Shown here: positions 7,213-32,575 of the stretch, piece by piece | Layout of the letters: each line of letters opens with the position of its first letter | Position numbering within the stretch: the first letter of the stretch is position 1 | Origin: a virus | DNA length: 39,075 nucleotides | Reading direction: 5' to 3' (one strand) | Virus record (IMG/VR): IMGVR_UViG_3300037258_000113 | Coordinates: 1-39,075 of that record | The notes under the pieces: generated by a model | The model's input: the letters and a program-made list of their open reading frames with translations, nothing else | Told to the model about the DNA's origin: nothing | Database searches by the model: none | Program-made: the position numbers and the translations under genes

Positions 7213-8165
7213 CAGGCACGCCGCCAGCGCCGGGCATACGACAGCTTGATCTGCGATCCGGTGCCCGCGCCGGCGAGCACGAGGCTCAGCTCGTTGACGC
7301 CGGGAACGAGCTGCCACAGGTCGCGCGGCGAGGATTTGACGAGGTCGGCCCACCAGTCGGTGCCGCTGCCGTCGATAGCTGACTGCAGTCCGGGCTGCGT
7401 GGTGACGATCCGTTGCTGCCCGGTGGTGAGCGCGGTCGCGAATGCGAAGCTGCGCCCCGTTGTCAGGTTGGCCAGGGTCGGCGTGCCGGGGCCGCTGATG
7501 GTCCAGGCGGGCCACGCGTCGGCGTCGCCGCTGTTGGTGATGGTGGTGTCCCCGAGAGCGGTTTCGGGGGTGAGGATGATCGGCGGCATCGGCGGCACGC
7601 CAGCACCGGAAGGCGGCGGCGTAATCACGGTCGGGGGGGGCGCCTGCTCGGGGGGGTCCTGGAAGTAGGGGGCCAGCGCCTGGAAGGTCAGCCCGAGCGT
7701 GAGGGACCGCTGCAGCGCGCCACCGTCGTCGTCGGGGACGTCGGCGCCGCTGGTGCAGGCGACCGCGATCTGCCGCGCCGACCCGTCGGGCCGCTGGAAG
7801 ATCAGCGTGCCTGCCGCGAAGAGGCCAGCGCGGTCGTGGGTCAGCGCGCGGGCGAGCGCGTCGGCGCGGGCGAGCAGCGCACCCTGATCATCGTCCCAGG
7901 CGTACAGGCCGATCACGATGGACCGGGCGCCGGGCGTGACGCCCTGGACGACGACGTCGCCGGTGGGGAGCTGGAGTGCGGCCAGCGCCGACGGCGCCGC
8001 GCCGATCCCCGCCACCGACGTGACGAATGCGCCTGAGCTGCGGTCCGACCATTCCCACGTGTTGCCGTCCGGGTCGATGTAGGTGACGCGGATCGCGGAC
8101 GGCGGCGGCGCGCCCGGCGGCGGCGGTGCCGACGGCGGCGTGATCGCGGATGCGAGGACCGGCAT
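7212..8165 (-). CDS. Distal tail protein (Dit-like)
   Basis: 317 residues. A Pro-rich N-terminus precedes a Dit-like domain (~25-180: VTYIDPDGNTWEW, IGLYAWDDDQGALLARADALARAL, LTFQALAPYFQDPP). A Pro-rich linker (~175-200) joins a second beta domain that starts GDADAWPAWTISGPGTP, the galectin-like half seen in siphovirus tail components. It sits directly after the tape measure gene, the usual place for Dit, which links tail tube and baseplate. The ATG lies just before the tape-measure stop, with GGAAG upstream. Confidence 0.83.
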   Translation of the reverse strand: MPVLASAITPPSAPPPPGAPPPSAIRVTYIDPDGNTWEWSDRSSGAFVTSVAGIGAAPSALAALQLPTGDVVVQGVTPGARSIVIGLYAWDDDQGALLARADALARALTHDRAGLFAAGTLIFQRPDGSARQIAVACTSGADVPDDDGGALQRSLTLGLTFQALAPYFQDPPEQAPPPTVITPPPSGAGVPPMPPIILTPETALGDTTITNSGDADAWPAWTISGPGTPTLANLTTGRSFAFATALTTGQQRIVTTQPGLQSAIDGSGTDWWADLVKSSPRDLWQLVPGVNELSLVLAGAGTGSQIKLSYARRWRRA

Positions 8166-13326: not shown

Positions 13327-14196
13327 CTAAGCGGCGGCTGTGCGCCGGCGCAGGGACACACGGTAGATCGCCGACATGGCCCGGACCTGCGCAGGATCGG
13401 GGGTCGGCAGCTCAGACGGCGCGGTCTCGGTGCGCGCCCGGTCGATGACGCCGTCGGCCGTGGCGGCTGGCGTGGCGAGGATCCGCTGCTGCGCCCGCCC
13501 GGCGAGCTGCTTTGCCTGCGCGATCGTCGCGGCGTACATGATCACGGAGACGCGCGCGACGTCGGTGATCCGGTCTGTGTCGGCGCCGCCGACCCTGTTG
13601 ACGCGGATCACCGGGAGCTGGGTGCCGGGCTGCGTCTGCGTGGTGACGGTCCCCATGTCGGCCAGGAGCGCGACCAGGATGGCCTCCGCGTCGGGCCACG
13701 GCGGCACTTCGGCGACGGCGCTGACGGTGGCGGCAGCTGCGATCACCGGTGCCGGAACGGCAGCTGAGCCCACCGCGCCGAGCATCGCCGTCGCGGTGCC
13801 GCCTATCGCCGGCGTAGCTGCCGCGACGGCTCCGGTGCCGGGGATGGTCTCGCTGCCGGTGGCTCCCGGTGTCGGCGCCGCTATGGTCACGTCGGCGTCG
13901 CCGGGGATGGTCTCGCTGCCCGTCGCGGCCGCGGCAGGTGCTGCTACCGCTGGAGCGCCGTCGCCGCTGATGACCGCCGCTGCCTCAGCGTCCGCTCCTG
14001 GAGAGGGGACTGCTGCCGCGTCCGTGCCGCTGATCGTTTCCGTAGCGGCTGCGGCGATGCCGGGCGCGGGGACTGCTGCCGCGTCCGTGCCGCTGATCGT
14101 TTCCGTAGCGGCTGCGCCGATGCCGGGCGCGGGGACGGTGACAGCGGCCACACCGAGGATGGCGACCAGGTCGGCGATGTCAACGGTGGCTGCCAT
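13327..14196 (-). CDS. Tail terminator protein with N-terminal tandem-repeat extension
   Basis: 289 residues (ATG 14196; a GTG one codon upstream is possible). Residues ~165-289 resemble actinophage tail terminators: PWPDAEAILVALLADMG, LPVIRVNRVGGADTDR, ARVSVIMYAATIAQAKQLAG and a final IYRVSLRRR strand. Such proteins cap the tail tube and normally stand alone at ~130 residues. Here they follow about seven Ala-rich 20-21-residue repeats of the form AAAVPAPGIAAAATETISGT. The first residues (VDIADLVA) resemble the VADL protein at 2161-2433. Position just before the major tail protein supports the C-terminal call; the extension is unexplained. Confidence 0.78.
   Translation of the reverse strand: MAATVDIADLVAILGVAAVTVPAPGIGAAATETISGTDAAAVPAPGIAAAATETISGTDAAAVPSPGADAEAAAVISGDGAPAVAAPAAAATGSETIPGDADVTIAAPTPGATGSETIPGTGAVAAATPAIGGTATAMLGAVGSAAVPAPVIAAAATVSAVAEVPPWPDAEAILVALLADMGTVTTQTQPGTQLPVIRVNRVGGADTDRITDVARVSVIMYAATIAQAKQLAGRAQQRILATPAATADGVIDRARTETAPSELPTPDPAQVRAMSAIYRVSLRRRTAAA
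14005..14130 (-). repeat. Two near-identical 63-bp tandem repeats in the tail terminator gene
   Basis: Copies at 14005-14067 and 14068-14130 differ by one base that I can see. Each encodes one 21-residue unit. Five more diverged units of the same period make up the rest of the extension, so these two copies are probably a recent duplication. Confidence 0.85.
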
Positions 14197-23844: not shown

Positions 23845-24548
23845 GCGGTGCCTGCTTTTCGTTCGGCTGCCTCGACTCGCTGCGCCAGCCACTCCCATTC
23901 CCAGAGCGGCCACGCGGGGTTGCCGCGCCACCATGTGCCTGCGTCCTGCTCCGGTGGCGTGCAGATGCCGGATTCGCAGACGATCGCGGGCATCTGGCCG
24001 GGCAGCAGCCGGACGCGCCAGCTTGGCTTGCGCTGGATACCGCCGTGGCACCACGGGCAGTCGGCTGCCAGGTGCTGCCGGTCGTAGATGATGCTGAGCG
24101 CGGTCTCGATGCTGTGCAGGATGTCCCACGCGGCGTGGTCGAGGGGGATGCCGTCGGGCATCGAGCGCGCCGCGCTGCGGCACCAGTCGATGAGGGGGGA
24201 TGGGTCGCGCACCGCTGACGGCCAGCATGGACGGGGCGCGACCATCCGCGCTGGGGGGTTCACTCCATCCCCGGCTTCGAGGTCACACGATGCGCCGAGC
24301 AGCGCTGCGTGCAGGGTGCTGAGGGTGTCGAGCACATCAAGGTGCAGGGGTGCTGGCTGCGCTTCAAGGAAGATCTCGGCCATGTGACGGTCGACCCGGA
24401 GCTGCGCATCGCGATCCTCGCGCTGCTCGCTTGTCAGTTCGGCGGGGCGCCATGGTCGCGGGGTGCCGGGGATGCGCGTAGTGGCGAGGAGTGGCCAGAG
24501 CTGGGCGATGCGCGTCCACGGATCGGTGCGCGTCGGAGCGGCGGTCAC
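23841..24548 (-). CDS. Zn-binding early phage protein (DUF7341-like)
   Basis: 235 residues from GTG 24548, overlapping the clamp-like gene stop (GTGA). The first ~160 residues are helical. The C-terminal part has CPWCHGG, CESGICTPPEQD and WWRGNPAWPLWEWEWLAQRV, an aromatic and Cys-rich pattern shared by early proteins of Streptomyces prophages. The two Cys pairs suggest a Zn ribbon. The molecular role is unknown; it travels with the DnaN-like gene. Confidence 0.75.
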   Translation of the reverse strand: MTAAPTRTDPWTRIAQLWPLLATTRIPGTPRPWRPAELTSEQREDRDAQLRVDRHMAEIFLEAQPAPLHLDVLDTLSTLHAALLGASCDLEAGDGVNPPARMVAPRPCWPSAVRDPSPLIDWCRSAARSMPDGIPLDHAAWDILHSIETALSIIYDRQHLAADCPWCHGGIQRKPSWRVRLLPGQMPAIVCESGICTPPEQDAGTWWRGNPAWPLWEWEWLAQRVEAAERKAGTA

Positions 24549-25435
24549 TTTGCGGCGCCCTCGATCTCGGTGGCGGCCGTTGTTGCTGGCTGCTGGAAGA
24601 GCGCGGGATTCACGTCCGGGGTGGGCGGGGCGCCGTCGGCGTGCAGCTCCGCATGGGGATCGCCGGACTGCATCGCGTCGGCCAGCTCCGTGCCGGTGAG
24701 AAGGCCGGCGCCATCGCGCAGCAGGTCACGCTGCGGGCACAGGTCAGCGCGCCATGCTGAATCGGCGAGCATCACCTCGGGTGATTCGAGGTACCGCTTG
24801 GGTGCCCAGACGCCGAGGAAGTGATCCTCGACGGCCATGAGCACGAGGTCGTCGCCTGTGGTGCCGGTGAAGACGGCGAGGCGCTCGGCACCGCGGCACG
24901 CGGCCGCCCAGCGGCTGAGCTCGGCGGCTTCAAGGTGCAGGGCTGGTGCCATCTGCGTCATGGGGCGCTCCAGGGCGCCGCGCAGCTTGCCGCGCCACCC
25001 GGCGAGCGGATCGGAAGACGGGTCGCGCTGGTCGTGCAGCACGAGCCGCGTGCCGGTCTCTGACTCGACGGTGATGGCGAGCCTGCGGACGCTGGTGCGG
25101 CGTCCGGCTGTGGTGACGGGGACGAAGACGTTGTCGATGGTGATGCGGAGCTGGGGGTCGTCTTCCTTGGCGTAGGGGAAGAGCTTGAGGGCGGCTTTGA
25201 CGTCGGCGAGCCTGACGTGGACGGGCTGTGGCTGGAGGTTGAGCCAGTCGAGGTCGGGGGTGAAGCGGCGCTCGGCGGCGAGGGATGCACGGTCGGTGGC
25301 GATGGCGAAGAGGGCGCGGCCGATGGTGTCGATGCGGATGACGGACAGCGCGGATTTGGGGTCGGTGCTGGCGTGGGGGATGACGGGCTTAAGCAGCCCG
25401 GTGAGTTCGCGGCTTGTCATGTCGATGCGCGGCAT
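24545..25435 (-). CDS. DnaN-like sliding-clamp protein (first of two)
   Basis: 296 residues, ATG with AAAGGAG eight bases upstream. It resembles divergent phage clamps: LTGLLKPVIPHASTDPKSALSVIRIDT in pieces at the start, GRALFAIATDRASLAAERR, and the DDLVLMAVEDHFLGVWAP end strand that corresponds to the clamp C-terminal sheet. At ~300 residues it is shorter than bacterial DnaN (~370), and the last ~50 residues are a Pro/Ala-rich tail. A clamp tethers polymerase to DNA. Whether it forms a ring, or competes with the host clamp, cannot be read. Confidence 0.72.
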   Translation of the reverse strand: MPRIDMTSRELTGLLKPVIPHASTDPKSALSVIRIDTIGRALFAIATDRASLAAERRFTPDLDWLNLQPQPVHVRLADVKAALKLFPYAKEDDPQLRITIDNVFVPVTTAGRRTSVRRLAITVESETGTRLVLHDQRDPSSDPLAGWRGKLRGALERPMTQMAPALHLEAAELSRWAAACRGAERLAVFTGTTGDDLVLMAVEDHFLGVWAPKRYLESPEVMLADSAWRADLCPQRDLLRDGAGLLTGTELADAMQSGDPHAELHADGAPPTPDVNPALFQQPATTAATEIEGAAK

Positions 25436-25453: not shown

Positions 25454-25813
25454 TCAGAAAGGCGGTTCGGGCGGCAATTGGATCGGGGATACGTACGGGA
25501 TTTTCGGAGGGGGCTTGTATGGCATGACGGGGTTGCGTCCGTCGGGGCAGCGGTGGCTGAGCATGACGGGATGGTCGCGGTGCTTGATGCGGAATATGTC
25601 GCGGTGAATGAGGTAGAGGCCTTTTGGCTCGGTGAGCATGTCGTAGGAGTAGCGGGGTGGCGTGGCGATTAGTGCGGTTATCTCGGCGTGGATGTCTGCG
25701 GGGGTGATGTCGACGGTGGTGGTGGCTCCCCCTTCGATGCCGGTGAGGACCAGGGCGCAGCAGTGGGGGCATGGACGGGCGGCGGCTGGCCGGCTGATGA
25801 GGTGCTCGGTCAT
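25454..25813 (-). CDS. Small Zn-finger-like early protein
   Basis: 119 residues. The start overlaps the replication-gene stop (ATGA). CPHCCALVL at ~15-23 gives a CxxC, with HRDIFRIKHRDHPVMLSHRCPDG later as a possible second half; the tail is Pro-rich. It is immediately downstream of the replication protein and just after the repeat cluster, so it should be co-transcribed with replication. Unknown function. Confidence 0.7.
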   Translation of the reverse strand: MTEHLISRPAAARPCPHCCALVLTGIEGGATTTVDITPADIHAEITALIATPPRYSYDMLTEPKGLYLIHRDIFRIKHRDHPVMLSHRCPDGRNPVMPYKPPPKIPYVSPIQLPPEPPF

Positions 25814-28098
25814 GACGTGCCGCCGGTGCTGGCGAGGATGGGGCAGCTGCGCCGGTCGTGGGCGCGCTCGCCGCAGCTCGTGCAGACGGTTTCATGATCG
25901 GGAACCACTGGGGTGGTCTGTGAGTGGTTCTGGGGGTGCCCGTGACCGCGAGTGGTTCCCGGTTCCGAGGGGTACTTCGTACCCCCCTCGGGAACCGGTG
26001 GGAACCACTCGCCATGATGGTCACTCGACTGGTTCCGGGAACCACTGGGAACCAGTCGGGAACCACTGGGAACCACTGAATTCTGAGTGTCGTTCTCGCC
26101 TGGTTTGTAGGGGAGCGCGGAGCGGTGGAGCTGGCCGTTACGGGGGCCGTCCTCGGTGGTGAGCCATCCGCCGGCGACGAGCTGTCCGATGGCGATGGTG
26201 ATCCACTGGGTCTTCCCGCGCACGGCGCTGCGGATGGTGCGCGCCGTCACTGGCTCGGCTTGCGATTCCACGAATCTGGATACGGCTTCCATGAGGTAGG
26301 TGGGCTGGAATTCTGGTTTTTCGGTGCCGGGCCGCATATCAGGTGCGGTGATTTCGGCGGTGATAGCACCGTCTTCGCCGGGGGTGAGGATGACCATTCC
26401 GGCGTAGGTCGCCCCGTTGCTGATAGCGCGGACATGGCCGGGCCGGTCTTTTGAGACGGTGAGGCGCAGTTTGCCTTCCTGTCCGCGCCCGAATTTCTGC
26501 ACGGGCTCGATCAGGTAGGCGGCGCCGTCGATGTCGGCGCGCTTGGCCTGGGCGCCGATGGCGTAAGGGCCGCGGTGCTCCTTGTCTTTCGTGGTGTGGT
26601 CAATGGTGAGGACGGCCGCTCCGGTTTTTTTCAATGGCCGGAGCAGGCGCTGGCTGAATGCTGTGGCGTCGGTGTTGTCTGTGAGCTTGAGGCCGAGCAG
26701 CGTCATCGCGGCGTTCACCCCGTCGAGCACCGCGAGATCTGGTGCAGGGTCGGCGAGGACGGCGCCGAGGTCGGCGACGGCCAGGGCGGTCAGCGGCTCA
26801 TCCGGGGAGATGTACCGGAATTGCCTGAGGATCTGGTCGCGGGTGGCGCCGAGGGCGAGGAGTCGCCCGGTGATCCCGGCTGGCGCGTCCTCGAAGTCGA
26901 GGAACAGGACATGCTGGCCGGCGTGGAGGGCCTGGGTGATGGCGAGCAGCGCGACCCATGTCTTGCCGGACTCGCTCTCGCCGATGAAGGCGTTGACCTT
27001 GCCGGCGTACAGGAGCTGCCTCCCGTCGGTGCGGGCGAGGAACGCGGGGAGGGGGTCGCCGCTGGCGTCTCCGTCGAGGATGGGGGTGAGGTCGCGCGGG
27101 TGCCACGAGCTGTGCACCGGCTCGGTTGTGTCGTCACTCTGCGTGTTTTCGTTAGTTGCCTGGTCAGGATGCGACGCTCCGATTGTTATGGGCGTTATGT
27201 TCTCGGGAAGTGGCGTTCCGTAACCGGCTTGGCGGAGGGCCGCGGCTGCGGCTGCGTGGTCGCCACCGTGCTCCAGCACGGCCATGGCGCCGAACTTCGA
27301 GTACGGCACCTCGGTCTCGAAGCCGGTTGAGCTGGAGAAGACGTAGAGTCCGCCGTTCTCCCGCGTGGTTGCGCTGGTGCCGCGTTCCTTGCCGGGACGT
27401 GTCCAGAGCTGCCGGCCGTTCCCGAGGTCGCGTGCCAGCTTCCAGCCATGGGGCCGGAGGATTTCCGGCCACGCCGTCTGAGCTGCCCAGTCGTCGCCCG
27501 GGCGCAGCTGGCCAGCGGGCGCCTGGCCACGCTGGTCGCGTGCCGGCTGCCGGAAGGGCTGCGGGTCAGGTGGCGGGTCGAGGACGGCGCGGATGGCTGG
27601 CCAGTCCACCGCGGTGGTGAGCGTGTCGGCAACGTTTCGCAGTACGTAGGGCTTGCCGACGATGGACGGGGGTGCGAGTACGTAGCCGCCGGTGCCGCGG
27701 AAGTCGATGCGGGCTTTGCGGATTGAGCCGTTCCGCTGGGCGCTCCCGGCGTAGTAGGCGTGCATGCCGCCAGAAGGCGTGGTGATGTAGCCGTCGGCAC
27801 CGCTGATGACCCCGGTGAGGATGAGATCGGTGAACGCCTCCCATCCGCTGCCGTCCGGCTTGACGTCGACGTCGATGACATCGGGACCGGGCGTGCCGGT
27901 GGCGATGCCGATGTTGGCGTCAGGGGTGGCGGTCCACCAGGCGCGGATCTGGGCGCCGTCGGTGGTGGCGTCGAGGACGCCGCGGCCGCCGCGGATGGCT
28001 GGTGTCTTGCTGCCGGGAGCGCAGGGGAAGACTGGCCAGCCGCGGGCCGCGTAGCCGAGCGCGGCGTCGAGCAGCTCGCTCACGCGACGGCCTCGCAT
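25810..28098 (-). CDS. Bifunctional primase-polymerase / RepA-type AAA ATPase
   Basis: 762 residues from ATG 28098, which overlaps the stop of a mini-ORF; a GTG 14 codons upstream lacks an SD. Residues ~5-175 are a Prim-Pol domain: RGWPVFPCAPGSKTP, VIDVDVKPDG (D76, D78) and TTPSGGMHAYY (108-116). A middle domain (GDDWAAQTAWPEILRPHGWKL) leads to an ATPase with FIGESESGKTW (373-380) and VLFLDFEDAP (401-404). Residues ~610-690 look like winged helices. A hydrophilic linker carries the DNA repeats, and CTSCGERAHDRRSC is a terminal Zn knuckle. It should prime and unwind at the phage origin. Confidence 0.9.
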   Translation of the reverse strand: MRGRRVSELLDAALGYAARGWPVFPCAPGSKTPAIRGGRGVLDATTDGAQIRAWWTATPDANIGIATGTPGPDVIDVDVKPDGSGWEAFTDLILTGVISGADGYITTPSGGMHAYYAGSAQRNGSIRKARIDFRGTGGYVLAPPSIVGKPYVLRNVADTLTTAVDWPAIRAVLDPPPDPQPFRQPARDQRGQAPAGQLRPGDDWAAQTAWPEILRPHGWKLARDLGNGRQLWTRPGKERGTSATTRENGGLYVFSSSTGFETEVPYSKFGAMAVLEHGGDHAAAAAALRQAGYGTPLPENITPITIGASHPDQATNENTQSDDTTEPVHSSWHPRDLTPILDGDASGDPLPAFLARTDGRQLLYAGKVNAFIGESESGKTWVALLAITQALHAGQHVLFLDFEDAPAGITGRLLALGATRDQILRQFRYISPDEPLTALAVADLGAVLADPAPDLAVLDGVNAAMTLLGLKLTDNTDATAFSQRLLRPLKKTGAAVLTIDHTTKDKEHRGPYAIGAQAKRADIDGAAYLIEPVQKFGRGQEGKLRLTVSKDRPGHVRAISNGATYAGMVILTPGEDGAITAEITAPDMRPGTEKPEFQPTYLMEAVSRFVESQAEPVTARTIRSAVRGKTQWITIAIGQLVAGGWLTTEDGPRNGQLHRSALPYKPGENDTQNSVVPSGSRLVPSGSRNQSSDHHGEWFPPVPEGGTKYPSEPGTTRGHGHPQNHSQTTPVVPDHETVCTSCGERAHDRRSCPILASTGGTS
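25901..26077. repeat. Iteron cluster with central dyad, candidate phage replication origin
   Basis: The 9-mer GGAACCACT or its complement occurs at 25901-25909, 25923-25930 (partial), 25951-25959, 26001-26009, 26038-26046, 26059-26067 and 26069-26077. One-mismatch forms are at 26028-26036, 26048-26056 and 25991-25999. The last four direct copies start 10, 11 and 10 bases apart, one helical turn. 25951-26009 is a large imperfect dyad: AGTGGTTCCC and GGGAACCACT flank a GGTTCCGAGGGGTAC hairpin with a TTC loop. Copies fall in all three frames, so they are not a protein repeat. Origins inside replication genes are known (lambda O). Confidence 0.72.
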
Positions 28099-28133
28099 GA
28101 CCGGCACGTCCCGGCGAAGATGCCGAGGATCAT
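28095..28133 (-). CDS. Possible 12-residue coupling ORF before the replication gene
   Basis: ATG 28133 overlaps the stop of the upstream gene (ATGA) and its TGA overlaps the ATG chosen for the primase (ATGA again); it encodes MILGIFAGTCRS. It fills the only gap in this part of the operon, so ribosomes could pass straight through. It may also be the remnant of a longer Cys-rich protein. Chance is possible. Confidence 0.35.
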
Positions 28134-28447
28134 GCGGCACCTCGGGTGAGCAGCGGGTGCAGCAGTGCTGCGTCCTCAGGCGTGGCCAGGTAGATGCCGG
28201 GCGCCGGGTAGTCGCCGGTCAGCTCGGCTGGCTGCGCGGGGTGTGGCTGCCGGAATGGGTGGTGGCGGGGTCGTCCGCCGGGTTCGCGGCTCGTGGTGGC
28301 CACCCCGCAGAGGACGCAGAGGCCAGTGAAGTAGATGCCGGTGCCGCGTGGCTCGTCGGCGATTGACGCGCACGTGAGCACGCTGCTGGTGGGCTTGCCG
28401 GTGTTGCAGAAGCCGAGTCCGGGTGAGGTGTAAGAGCCGCTGCTCAT
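28130..28447 (-). CDS. Small early protein with Cys motifs
   Basis: 105 residues from the ATG overlapping the upstream stop (ATGA at 28444-28447). The N-terminal half has GFCNTGKPTSSVLTC and YFTGLCVLCG, giving four Cys that could bind Zn. The rest is Pro/His-rich (HHPFRQPHPAQP), then PAPGIYLATPEDAALL. It belongs to a run of small Cys-rich genes just upstream of the primase. Family not recognised. Confidence 0.68.
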   Translation of the reverse strand: MSSGSYTSPGLGFCNTGKPTSSVLTCASIADEPRGTGIYFTGLCVLCGVATTSREPGGRPRHHPFRQPHPAQPAELTGDYPAPGIYLATPEDAALLHPLLTRGAA

Positions 28448-29635: not shown

Positions 29636-30442
29636 CTACTGGTTGGCGGTGGGCGGATTGGTGCGGTGACCTGGGCATCCGGTGCCCAGGTCAGTGGAAT
29701 GCGGCAGGTAGAACGGGCAGTACGTGCAGTACGAGTCAGCGGTCGCGAACAGCGCCCACCGCTCCGGGTACCGCTCCGGGTCGACAGTGATCAGCGACGT
29801 GCGGATGCTTTCCAGCCGCGTCAGGTACTCAGCGGCCAGCGCCGGGTTGAACGGCTCCGACCACACGTACAGATCGTCGATCCGGCCGCCGCGCGGGAGG
29901 AACACGACAGCGACGTTGCGAGGCTGGTAGCCGGCGAGCAGCCACCCCAGCCCGTAGGTATGGGACTGCACCTGGTACTGCTGGCCCGGGCCGCTGCGCC
30001 GGTACTTCCTGATCCGGTCAAGCGACGTGACTTTCCAGTCGATGACATCGCCCTGCTCGGTGTCGTAGAGGTCGCAGGATCCGCCGCGGGGCAGCCCGGG
30101 AATCTGGACGCGCTGCTCGATCAGGTACCGCGTGCGGCTGAGCTGCCGGTTGAGGGTGTCGTAGGTGTCAGCCATCCAGGCGTGGACGGCGGTGCCGATG
30201 GTGGAGGGCCACTGGTCGCGGTTGATGTTGGCCTGCGGCCAGTCGAGCAGCTTGTAGGCGAGCCTGCGCCTGCACTCGATGCCGATCTCGCTGGGCCCGA
30301 TCGCGGACTGGAGGGAGCGCGGTGCGTGCGCGGCGGCCTGGTGGACGGTGTCGATGACGGACGTGGAGATGCGCCCGGCGACGCCGGTGGTGGCTGGGCG
30401 GTGTACGGCGGCGGCTGGCTGGGCGAACGTCGGCGCGGTCAT
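29636..30442 (-). CDS. Cas4/RecB-like PD-(D/E)XK nuclease
   Basis: 268 residues, ATG 30442 overlapping the upstream stop. GPSEIGIECRRRLAYKLL holds C57; GTAVHAWM has the RecB-type H87; GSCDLYD (D124) and DVIDWKV (D135, K137) form the nuclease motif; QVQSHTYGLGW follows as motif IV. The C-terminus has YCTYCPFY and TGCPGH. C57 plus these three Cys match the 4Fe-4S layout of Cas4/AddB-type nucleases. In phages such enzymes process ends for recombination or replication. No CRISPR array is present, so the role is phage recombination. Confidence 0.85.
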   Translation of the reverse strand: MTAPTFAQPAAAVHRPATTGVAGRISTSVIDTVHQAAAHAPRSLQSAIGPSEIGIECRRRLAYKLLDWPQANINRDQWPSTIGTAVHAWMADTYDTLNRQLSRTRYLIEQRVQIPGLPRGGSCDLYDTEQGDVIDWKVTSLDRIRKYRRSGPGQQYQVQSHTYGLGWLLAGYQPRNVAVVFLPRGGRIDDLYVWSEPFNPALAAEYLTRLESIRTSLITVDPERYPERWALFATADSYCTYCPFYLPHSTDLGTGCPGHRTNPPTANQ

Positions 30443-30687
30443 GTTTCCCCGCAGCATTCGCCGACCCAGCCGCCAGCGCCGTCGGCGCGGATCTCTTCAC
30501 CGTGCTCGATGACAGCGCCGCACCCGGCGCAGCCGCTGTCGTAGCGGGCCGTGATCCACGGACCCATCTCGGGCTGCGCGGCCGAGCCGGATGGCTGGAG
30601 GAACAGCGCCGGGAGTTCCTGCGCGGGCCGCGCAGTGCAGTCAGCGCAGAAGCCGACAGGAAGCTCGTGCTTGCAATAGGTGGCCAT
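30439..30687 (-). CDS. Small Zn-ribbon protein
   Basis: 82 residues, ATG 30687 with GGAG six bases upstream and a TGATG overlap. Two Cys clusters: YCKHELPVGFCADC at the N-terminus and SGCAGCGAVIEHGEEI ... GECC at the C-terminus. The second is a common actinophage Zn ribbon in which the linker senses or binds DNA ends or RNA; function is unknown. It precedes the nuclease gene and overlaps it. Confidence 0.75.
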   Translation of the reverse strand: MATYCKHELPVGFCADCTARPAQELPALFLQPSGSAAQPEMGPWITARYDSGCAGCGAVIEHGEEIRADGAGGWVGECCGET

Positions 30688-31798: not shown

Positions 31799-32575
31799 CT
31801 ACTTCGAGGCCGTCGTGGCGGCGTCGATGCGCTTTCCGGCGATGTCCACCTCGTGCAGCACCACGCACGCGGGTGCCTTGATCTTGTCGCCGAGCGCGAT
31901 CATCGACTCGACAGCGACCTCGCACGCGAGGAACCGTCCGGCGCTGTCGTGCCCGTGGTAGCTCCGGGCGAGCCGCGGAGTGGCAGAGAAATGCAATCCG
32001 TTGCCGCAGTCGCGGGTGGGCTTCCAGTCCGGCGCGGTGACGGTCTCGCCGAGCGGGTACTTCATCCCGTGGTTGGACACGAGGTCGGCGTTGACGGCCT
32101 TATAGACGATGACGGTCCATCCCCGGTTTCCGGGCTTGAGTCCGTAGAACGCGGCCCACTCAGCGCCGCTGGCCTCGTTCAGGTCAGGAATGACGATGGG
32201 CACCCCGCCGGTGGTGGTGCCGTGATAACCGGGGTACTGCTGGACAGGGACCGCCGGCGTGGCCTCGACGCTGGCGGAGTCGTACGCCCTGACGCTGGCG
32301 GAGCCGTACGCCCTGACGCTGGCGGAGCCGTACGCCTCGACGCTGGCGGAGCCGTACGCCTCGACGCTGGCGGAGTCGTACGCCTCGACGCTGGCGGAGC
32401 CGGACGCCCTGACGCTGGCGGAGCCGGACGCCTCGACGCTGGCGGAGCCGGACGCCCTGACGCTGGCGGAGCCGGACGCCACGACGATGCGCCCGGCGTT
32501 GATGCAGAGATAGGTGTCGGCTTCGTCCTTGTGCGCGTCGTACTCGGCCTGGTTGCTGATGTCGATGTATTTCAC
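31799..32575 (-). CDS. Octapeptide-repeat protein with DUF7666-like domain
   Basis: 258 residues from GTG 32575 (AGGAG ten bases upstream). A ~34-residue N-terminal cap (YIDISNQAEYDAHKDEAD) precedes nine exact 8-residue repeats at 35-106 of the form GSASV(R/E)A(S/Y). The regular small-hydrophobic spacing predicts a beta-solenoid. Residues ~135-258 carry WTVIVYKAVNADLVSNHG, KPTRDCGNGLHFSATP and ARSYHG, the DUF7666-type domain with a Cys/His that could be catalytic. A binding or anti-host role is possible but not shown. Confidence 0.76.
   Translation of the reverse strand: MKYIDISNQAEYDAHKDEADTYLCINAGRIVVASGSASVRASGSASVEASGSASVRASGSASVEAYDSASVEAYGSASVEAYGSASVRAYGSASVRAYDSASVEATPAVPVQQYPGYHGTTTGGVPIVIPDLNEASGAEWAAFYGLKPGNRGWTVIVYKAVNADLVSNHGMKYPLGETVTAPDWKPTRDCGNGLHFSATPRLARSYHGHDSAGRFLACEVAVESMIALGDKIKAPACVVLHEVDIAGKRIDAATTASK
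32258..32473 (-). repeat. Nine tandem 24-bp repeats encoding the octapeptide solenoid
   Basis: 216 bp; each unit encodes one GSASVxAx octapeptide. Units alternate between RA and EA and between Ser and Tyr at the last residue. The DNA copies are nearly identical, so copy number is likely to vary by slippage. Confidence 0.9.

Follow-up and report, generated by a model that had tools for sequence, protein, structure and literature searches.

Iterons that lie in rep1 and bind Rep1 belong to pSLA2, and the origin of N15 and PY54 lies in repA. In SaPI Rep and SCCmec Cch2, a C-terminal domain reads iterons located directly downstream of the protein's own gene (PMC7581432), while the gene for pRN1 ORF904 is directly followed by an essential stem-loop, similar versions of which were mentioned by the authors for phages (PMC4234260), and the lambda origin has its iterons inside gene O (PMC7466680). 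The Streptomyces plasmid pWTY27 has GTGGGAAC/TTCCCAC repeats that form part of a long inverted repeat and are bound by RepA in vitro, and RepB is a predicted primase/polymerase (PMC3583192). Here we analyze an array of iterons surrounding a hairpin near the 3' end of a replication gene in the IMG/VR viral record IMGVR_UViG_3300037258_000113 (39,075 bp, one strand; the window denotes this whole stretch). The segment is very probably a phage replication origin, at which the iterons would be bound by the protein of the surrounding gene via its C-terminal winged helix.

As for SaPI Rep and SCCmec Cch2, the iterons are found at the 3' end of a helicase gene or immediately after it, and the place of their iteron-reading C-terminal domain may be taken here by a predicted winged helix whose similarity tracks that of the iterons. 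SaPI Rep and Cch2 are AAA+ (SaPI Rep/D5-like) helicases, whereas the helicase here is a RecA-fold AAA_25 protein (PF13481) with matches to KaiC, T7 gp4 and Twinkle; unlike in those systems, a G/C hairpin is situated amid the iterons and the array is sometimes inside the gene. Similar to pRN1 ORF904, a Prim-Pol domain, a helicase and a C-terminal winged helix are combined in one protein, and a stem-loop is found at the 3' end of the gene (25948-26012 in the window; core hairpin in 25/35 relatives). However, ORF904 contains an SF3 helicase, and its stem-loop of approximately 100 nt has a large loop and no iteron structure, in contrast to the RecA fold and iterons of the present system. Lambda O, cited as precedent in the first-pass annotation, is indeed a case of iterons inside an initiator gene, although embedding applies to only about one third of the relatives analyzed here, and SaPI Rep, SCCmec Cch2 and pRN1 ORF904 provide further precedents for an origin inside or behind a multi-domain replication gene. 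The lambda iterons are situated mid-gene and adjoin an AT-rich region, which was not found here, and lambda O is not a helicase and recruits a separate one, whereas the present protein carries its own RecA-fold helicase domain. The pWTY27 iteron is located in a non-coding stretch, whereas the array in the window is translated, and pSLA2 Rep1 and N15/PY54 RepA belong to protein families different from that of our replication protein. Judged by its predicted domains and DNA elements, the system differs from SaPI/SCCmec and pRN1 in the helicase fold and from lambda in being a helicase without an AT-rich region. No paper on the combination of RecA-fold helicase, iterons and hairpin was found in a literature search that covered few subscription papers.

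The array and its gene in the window

The array at 25900-26077 is made up of roughly ten GGGAACC(A/G) units, which occur in either orientation. When up to one mismatch is allowed, GGAACCACT occurs 14 times in the window compared to 5.15 (sd 2.26) in shuffled sequences, none of which reached 14, and nine of these copies are concentrated in the 177 bp from 25901 to 26077, while the other five are scattered over the rest of the 39 kb. Six copies are exact (25901+, 25951-, 26001+, 26038+, 26059+ and 26069+) and three have one mismatch (25923-, 26028- and 26048+). At the background density, which is far lower than that in the array, 0.023 copies would be expected per 177 bp (P(≥9) = 4e-21). The hexamer GGAACC is present ten times in the segment, and GGGAACCA seven times in the segment and nowhere else in the 39 kb. 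The first-pass annotation had described about ten 9-mer copies in 177 bp, with the last four direct copies spaced by 10, 11 and 10 bp, and both statements are borne out by our counts (four direct iterons at 26037-26077, + strand). Its 59-bp dyad at 25951-26009 is real as well, but extends slightly further to 25948-26012. These 65 nt form a single hairpin with the core GGGGTACTTCGTACCCCCC and iterons in its arms, and a predicted folding energy of -28.4 kcal/mol compared to -14.7 kcal/mol (sd 2.3) for shuffled sequences (z=-6.1). A search of Rfam returned only matches far under the gathering scores.

The array lies inside an open reading frame (ORF) for 776 amino acids (25810-28140, - strand), assigned as replication gene by Pfam and PHROG matches, in agreement with the earlier description of a Prim-Pol/ATPase gene. 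The encoded protein consists, in this order, of a Prim-Pol domain (aa 27-170, 27631-28062, - strand; PF09250, E=1e-31), a RecA-fold helicase core (approximately aa 365-598, 26347-27048, - strand) with the AAA_25 match (PF13481) at aa 376-520, a predicted winged helix, the linker encoded by the array and a CX2CX4HX4C tail. An AlphaFold model built from a 51-sequence alignment contains a confident RecA fold, and Foldseek and profile searches placed the core with KaiC, T7 gp4, Twinkle, RecA and RAD51, so that the modeled helicase is of the RecA-fold type and not SF3. The winged helix (approximately aa 614-674, 26119-26301, - strand) is predicted with high pLDDT as helix-helix-helix-strand-strand and is the likely reader of the iterons. 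Shortly after its codons the array begins, with copies in all three codon frames and both orientations, as had been noted before, and the linker encoded by it (approximately aa 684-751) is predicted to be disordered (pLDDT <50).

Recurrence at the end of homologous genes

Relatives were collected by two routes, one using only DNA and one only protein; some loci are near-duplicates, and we therefore report non-redundant numbers wherever this affects a result. The DNA pattern GGGAACCACN{0,3}GGGAACCAC was found at 53 loci in viral contigs. A profile of the AAA domain detected the helicase in 18 of them, and in 17 of these 18 the repeats lie approximately 270-465 bp beyond the AAA domain; in the exception (L027), the matched repeat pair is elsewhere, although the end of the gene carries an array too. 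Among ten further multi-copy loci scanned with Pfam, an AAA_25 gene adjoins the cluster in seven (one with Prim-Pol and one with Toprim) and a DnaB_C-like helicase was detected in two. At L014, the scanned ORF encodes an SNF2-type helicase, and a weak match to the winged helix was obtained for the ORF that follows. Five loci (L035, L049, L055, L057 and L064) look like collagen-type coding repeats and were left uncounted. Separately, L056 contains five perfect 12-bp direct repeats (GGGAACCACTTC, 7727-7775) that are apparently intergenic, with no helicase gene found adjoining.

When an alignment of helicase and winged helix was used to search viral contigs, 80 loci were recovered, 73 of which have their strongest 8-mer cluster between -150 and +600 bp from the match end. 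After reduction to non-redundant loci at 70% helicase identity, the cluster was located at -150 to +400 bp in 25/29, compared to 8.5% expected (p=3e-23). The same position was observed in 11 of 12 genome contigs with homologues, nearly all titled as Actinobacteria (Nocardioides, Streptomonospora, Actinomadura, Serinicoccus, Phycicoccus, Nocardia and Nocardiopsis). Scanning viral contigs with the single protein gave only three distant loci. The array is situated at the AAA ATPase gene of two small plasmids, and the cases observed include the Kineococcus plasmid pKRAD02 (GGGAACCACC, within the gene), a 7.9-kb Streptomyces plasmid, phage MinS1 and Streptomyces phage Dagobah. The Microbacterium phages Hendrix and Leaf have just 3-4 copies of other repeats at the gene end. 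The comparison of relatives proposed in the first-pass annotation thus places a repeat cluster at the same site in nearly all homologues, and by sequence the same arrangement, with different repeat words, terminates this gene in dozens of phages as well as in a few plasmids, which are mainly those of Actinobacteria. MinS1 (L158, MZ923504.1) is labelled with the cyanobacterium Microcystis as host, but encodes an Lsr2-family protein and has an array near-identical to that of Nocardioides oceani (L152), so that its host label may merit checking.

When window copies and duplicates are counted, there are 97 arrays, of which 33 lie within the ORF, 55 shortly after its stop codon and nine across it; for the 35 non-redundant loci, the numbers are 11, 23 and one. 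Embedding of the putative origin in the gene, which the first-pass annotation emphasized, is therefore true for the window but not essential, because 23 of the 35 arrays lie behind the stop. Across these alignments, location inside the gene appears incidental, and the constant feature is the start of the array shortly after the winged-helix codons.

A close DNA relative of the window locus was not present in the phage collection searched, and conservation within a lineage was analyzed in another lineage. There, the array of L080 is translated and that of L094 is not, owing to a small insertion that carries stop codons, although the helicase regions are 94.6% identical. The hairpin and most iterons are identical between the two, while the spacers differ. 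For 15 distinct sequences of this lineage, conservation was 100% in the dyad core, 97% in the iterons, 81% in the spacers and 87% in the upstream coding DNA. Iterons and hairpin are thus kept whether translated or not while the spacers diverge, which strongly supports that the array is under selection as DNA of an origin type and not as protein, as had been proposed from the window alone.

Iterons, winged helix and hairpin core

The consensus iterons vary between lineages and include GGGAACCAC, GGGACGAGGT, GGGACACGGT, GGGCGAGGT and GGGCAGGT as well as GGGAAAGGGT, GGGTCAAT, AGGTTCGG, TCGGTCAA and ACCGGGGT. For 35 loci with less than 85% helicase identity, iteron similarity correlated with winged-helix identity when helicase identity was held constant (partial r=0.39, reached in 0/2000 permutations, p<0.0005, phylogeny being not fully removed by the permutation), while helicase identity added little (partial r=0.11, p=0.08). 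Iteron similarity thus follows the winged helix more closely than it follows the helicase, which makes the winged helix a candidate iteron reader, and the data point to this role. L036 and L038 have very divergent helicases with a still recognizable winged helix (E ~1e-5), and have kept GGGAACCAC iterons.

A core consisting of a C-run, a small loop and a G-run, or alternatively GGGGGGTACGAAGTACCCC or TACGTAGTA, is present in 25 of the 35 arrays compared to 2.4% of random windows. The hairpin core of the window is identical to that of L122/L153 (Phycicoccus), although the iterons differ, indicating that the hairpin may be a second element independent of iteron identity. It could represent the site of strand opening or priming.

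Proposed function and alternative explanations

The array can be regarded as origin-type because of its same position in homologues, its conservation with or without translation and the tracking of the winged helix. The array itself, its fixed place, its recurrence, the selection on DNA and the tracking can be read directly from the sequences. In the mechanism that we propose, the C-terminal winged helix of the replication protein would contact the GGGAACCAC iterons, and several subunits of this protein, at a spacing of about one helical turn on both sides of the central dyad, would assemble and presumably load the RecA-fold helicase. The region of the G/C-stem hairpin may then be opened or extruded, and synthesis on the exposed strand could be started by the Prim-Pol domain, which belongs to the same polypeptide in the window and in a few relatives, or by another primase. 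A Prim-Pol near the helicase was not found in most relatives by a single-sequence search, partly owing to incomplete loci.

Several observations weigh against an origin read by the winged helix. A stronger repeat cluster was located elsewhere in 7/80 viral loci, and the AAA_25 or Prim-Pol relatives KimJongPhill, Dulem virus 38, Bridgette, Shagrat and Wanda have no array at the gene end. The L024-L065 group shares the same iterons but gave no match to the winged-helix profile. No AT-rich unwinding element was found, the profile of the relatives containing no A+T peak beyond approximately 4%, and the GC skew of MinS1 and pKRAD02 gives no clear pointer to the array.

Iteron sites often also control copy number, as in iteron plasmids, and the array might accordingly be an autoregulatory or incompatibility site that limits expression or copy number when bound by the winged helix or a separate repressor, since the tracking of winged helix and iterons fits any binding role. 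We consider this unlikely, because the array is at the 3' end of the gene instead of a promoter position, a scan of its surroundings that covered sigma-70-type promoters only revealed no promoter-like site, and a conserved hairpin core would be unexpected for an operator. It is very improbable that the hairpin, which has a strong G/C stem and a small loop and is located at a gene end, is a transcription terminator with incidental repeats: in about one third of lineages it lies inside the ORF with more codons following, it has no T-run and was not reported by a terminator scan, and the iterons are as conserved as the stem flanks. Clusters of short repeats are also typical binding sites of ParB, and a five-repeat parS is located just behind repA in the mycobacteriophages Miko and Rachaly (PMC7157519). 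A parS-like centromere is nevertheless even less probable here, as the sequence of the iterons varies with the helicase's winged helix, no ParA/ParB was detected in the scanned subset of window ORFs, and the record encodes an integrase, so that partition is not obviously needed.

Least of all do we expect a repetitive linker under protein-level selection. The array is translated in the window and the linker is hydrophilic, but copies in all three frames and on both strands, the predicted disorder of the linker, the untranslated state of the array in the majority of lineages and its equal conservation when untranslated argue against it. By comparison, a genuine coding repeat at 32262-32486 of the window is confined to one strand and keeps the reading frame with a period of 24 bp. 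This tandem repeat (9.4 copies, 92% match) in the ORF 31799-32575 (- strand) encodes SGSASVRA/YGSASVEA, a true protein repeat in contrast to the origin array. A 63-bp tandem repeat (2.1 copies, 98% match) is present at 14005-14136.

Besides the replication gene, the window, which has a G+C content of 69.5%, contains temperate-phage genes for terminase, portal, major head protein, tape measure, endolysin and integrase, and this temperate phage probably has an actinobacterial host. Genes close to the replication gene (24545-25435 and 29636-30457, both - strand) gave matches to RusA-like resolvase and phage exonuclease families, consistent with a replication/recombination module. The CX2CX4HX4C tail behind the array (25843-25884, - strand), read from the translation, resembles a zinc knuckle; other embedded relatives have differing short tails after the array, several with TGE(V/I)-type or DPLW endings.

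More tentatively, and with somewhat more doubt than confidence, we suggest that these loci may constitute an undescribed and widespread class of origins, mainly in actinobacterial phages and plasmids. In this class, a RecA-fold helicase with its own winged-helix reader would self-load at a G/C hairpin that is flanked by iterons and needs no AT-rich element. The hairpin core, of the same type in lineages with differing iterons, would serve as strand-opening or priming site, and winged helix and iterons would diverge as a matched pair. For many phages and small plasmids, the analysis provides a candidate origin that can be tested and would be predictable from sequence: in AAA_25 replication genes, it should lie 0-400 bp beyond the winged helix. 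Natural pairs of winged helix and iterons are numerous and may serve as a data set for rules of DNA recognition and for replicons that are compatible and independent. Should the RecA-fold helicase indeed self-load, self-loading initiator helicases would reach beyond the AAA+ class.
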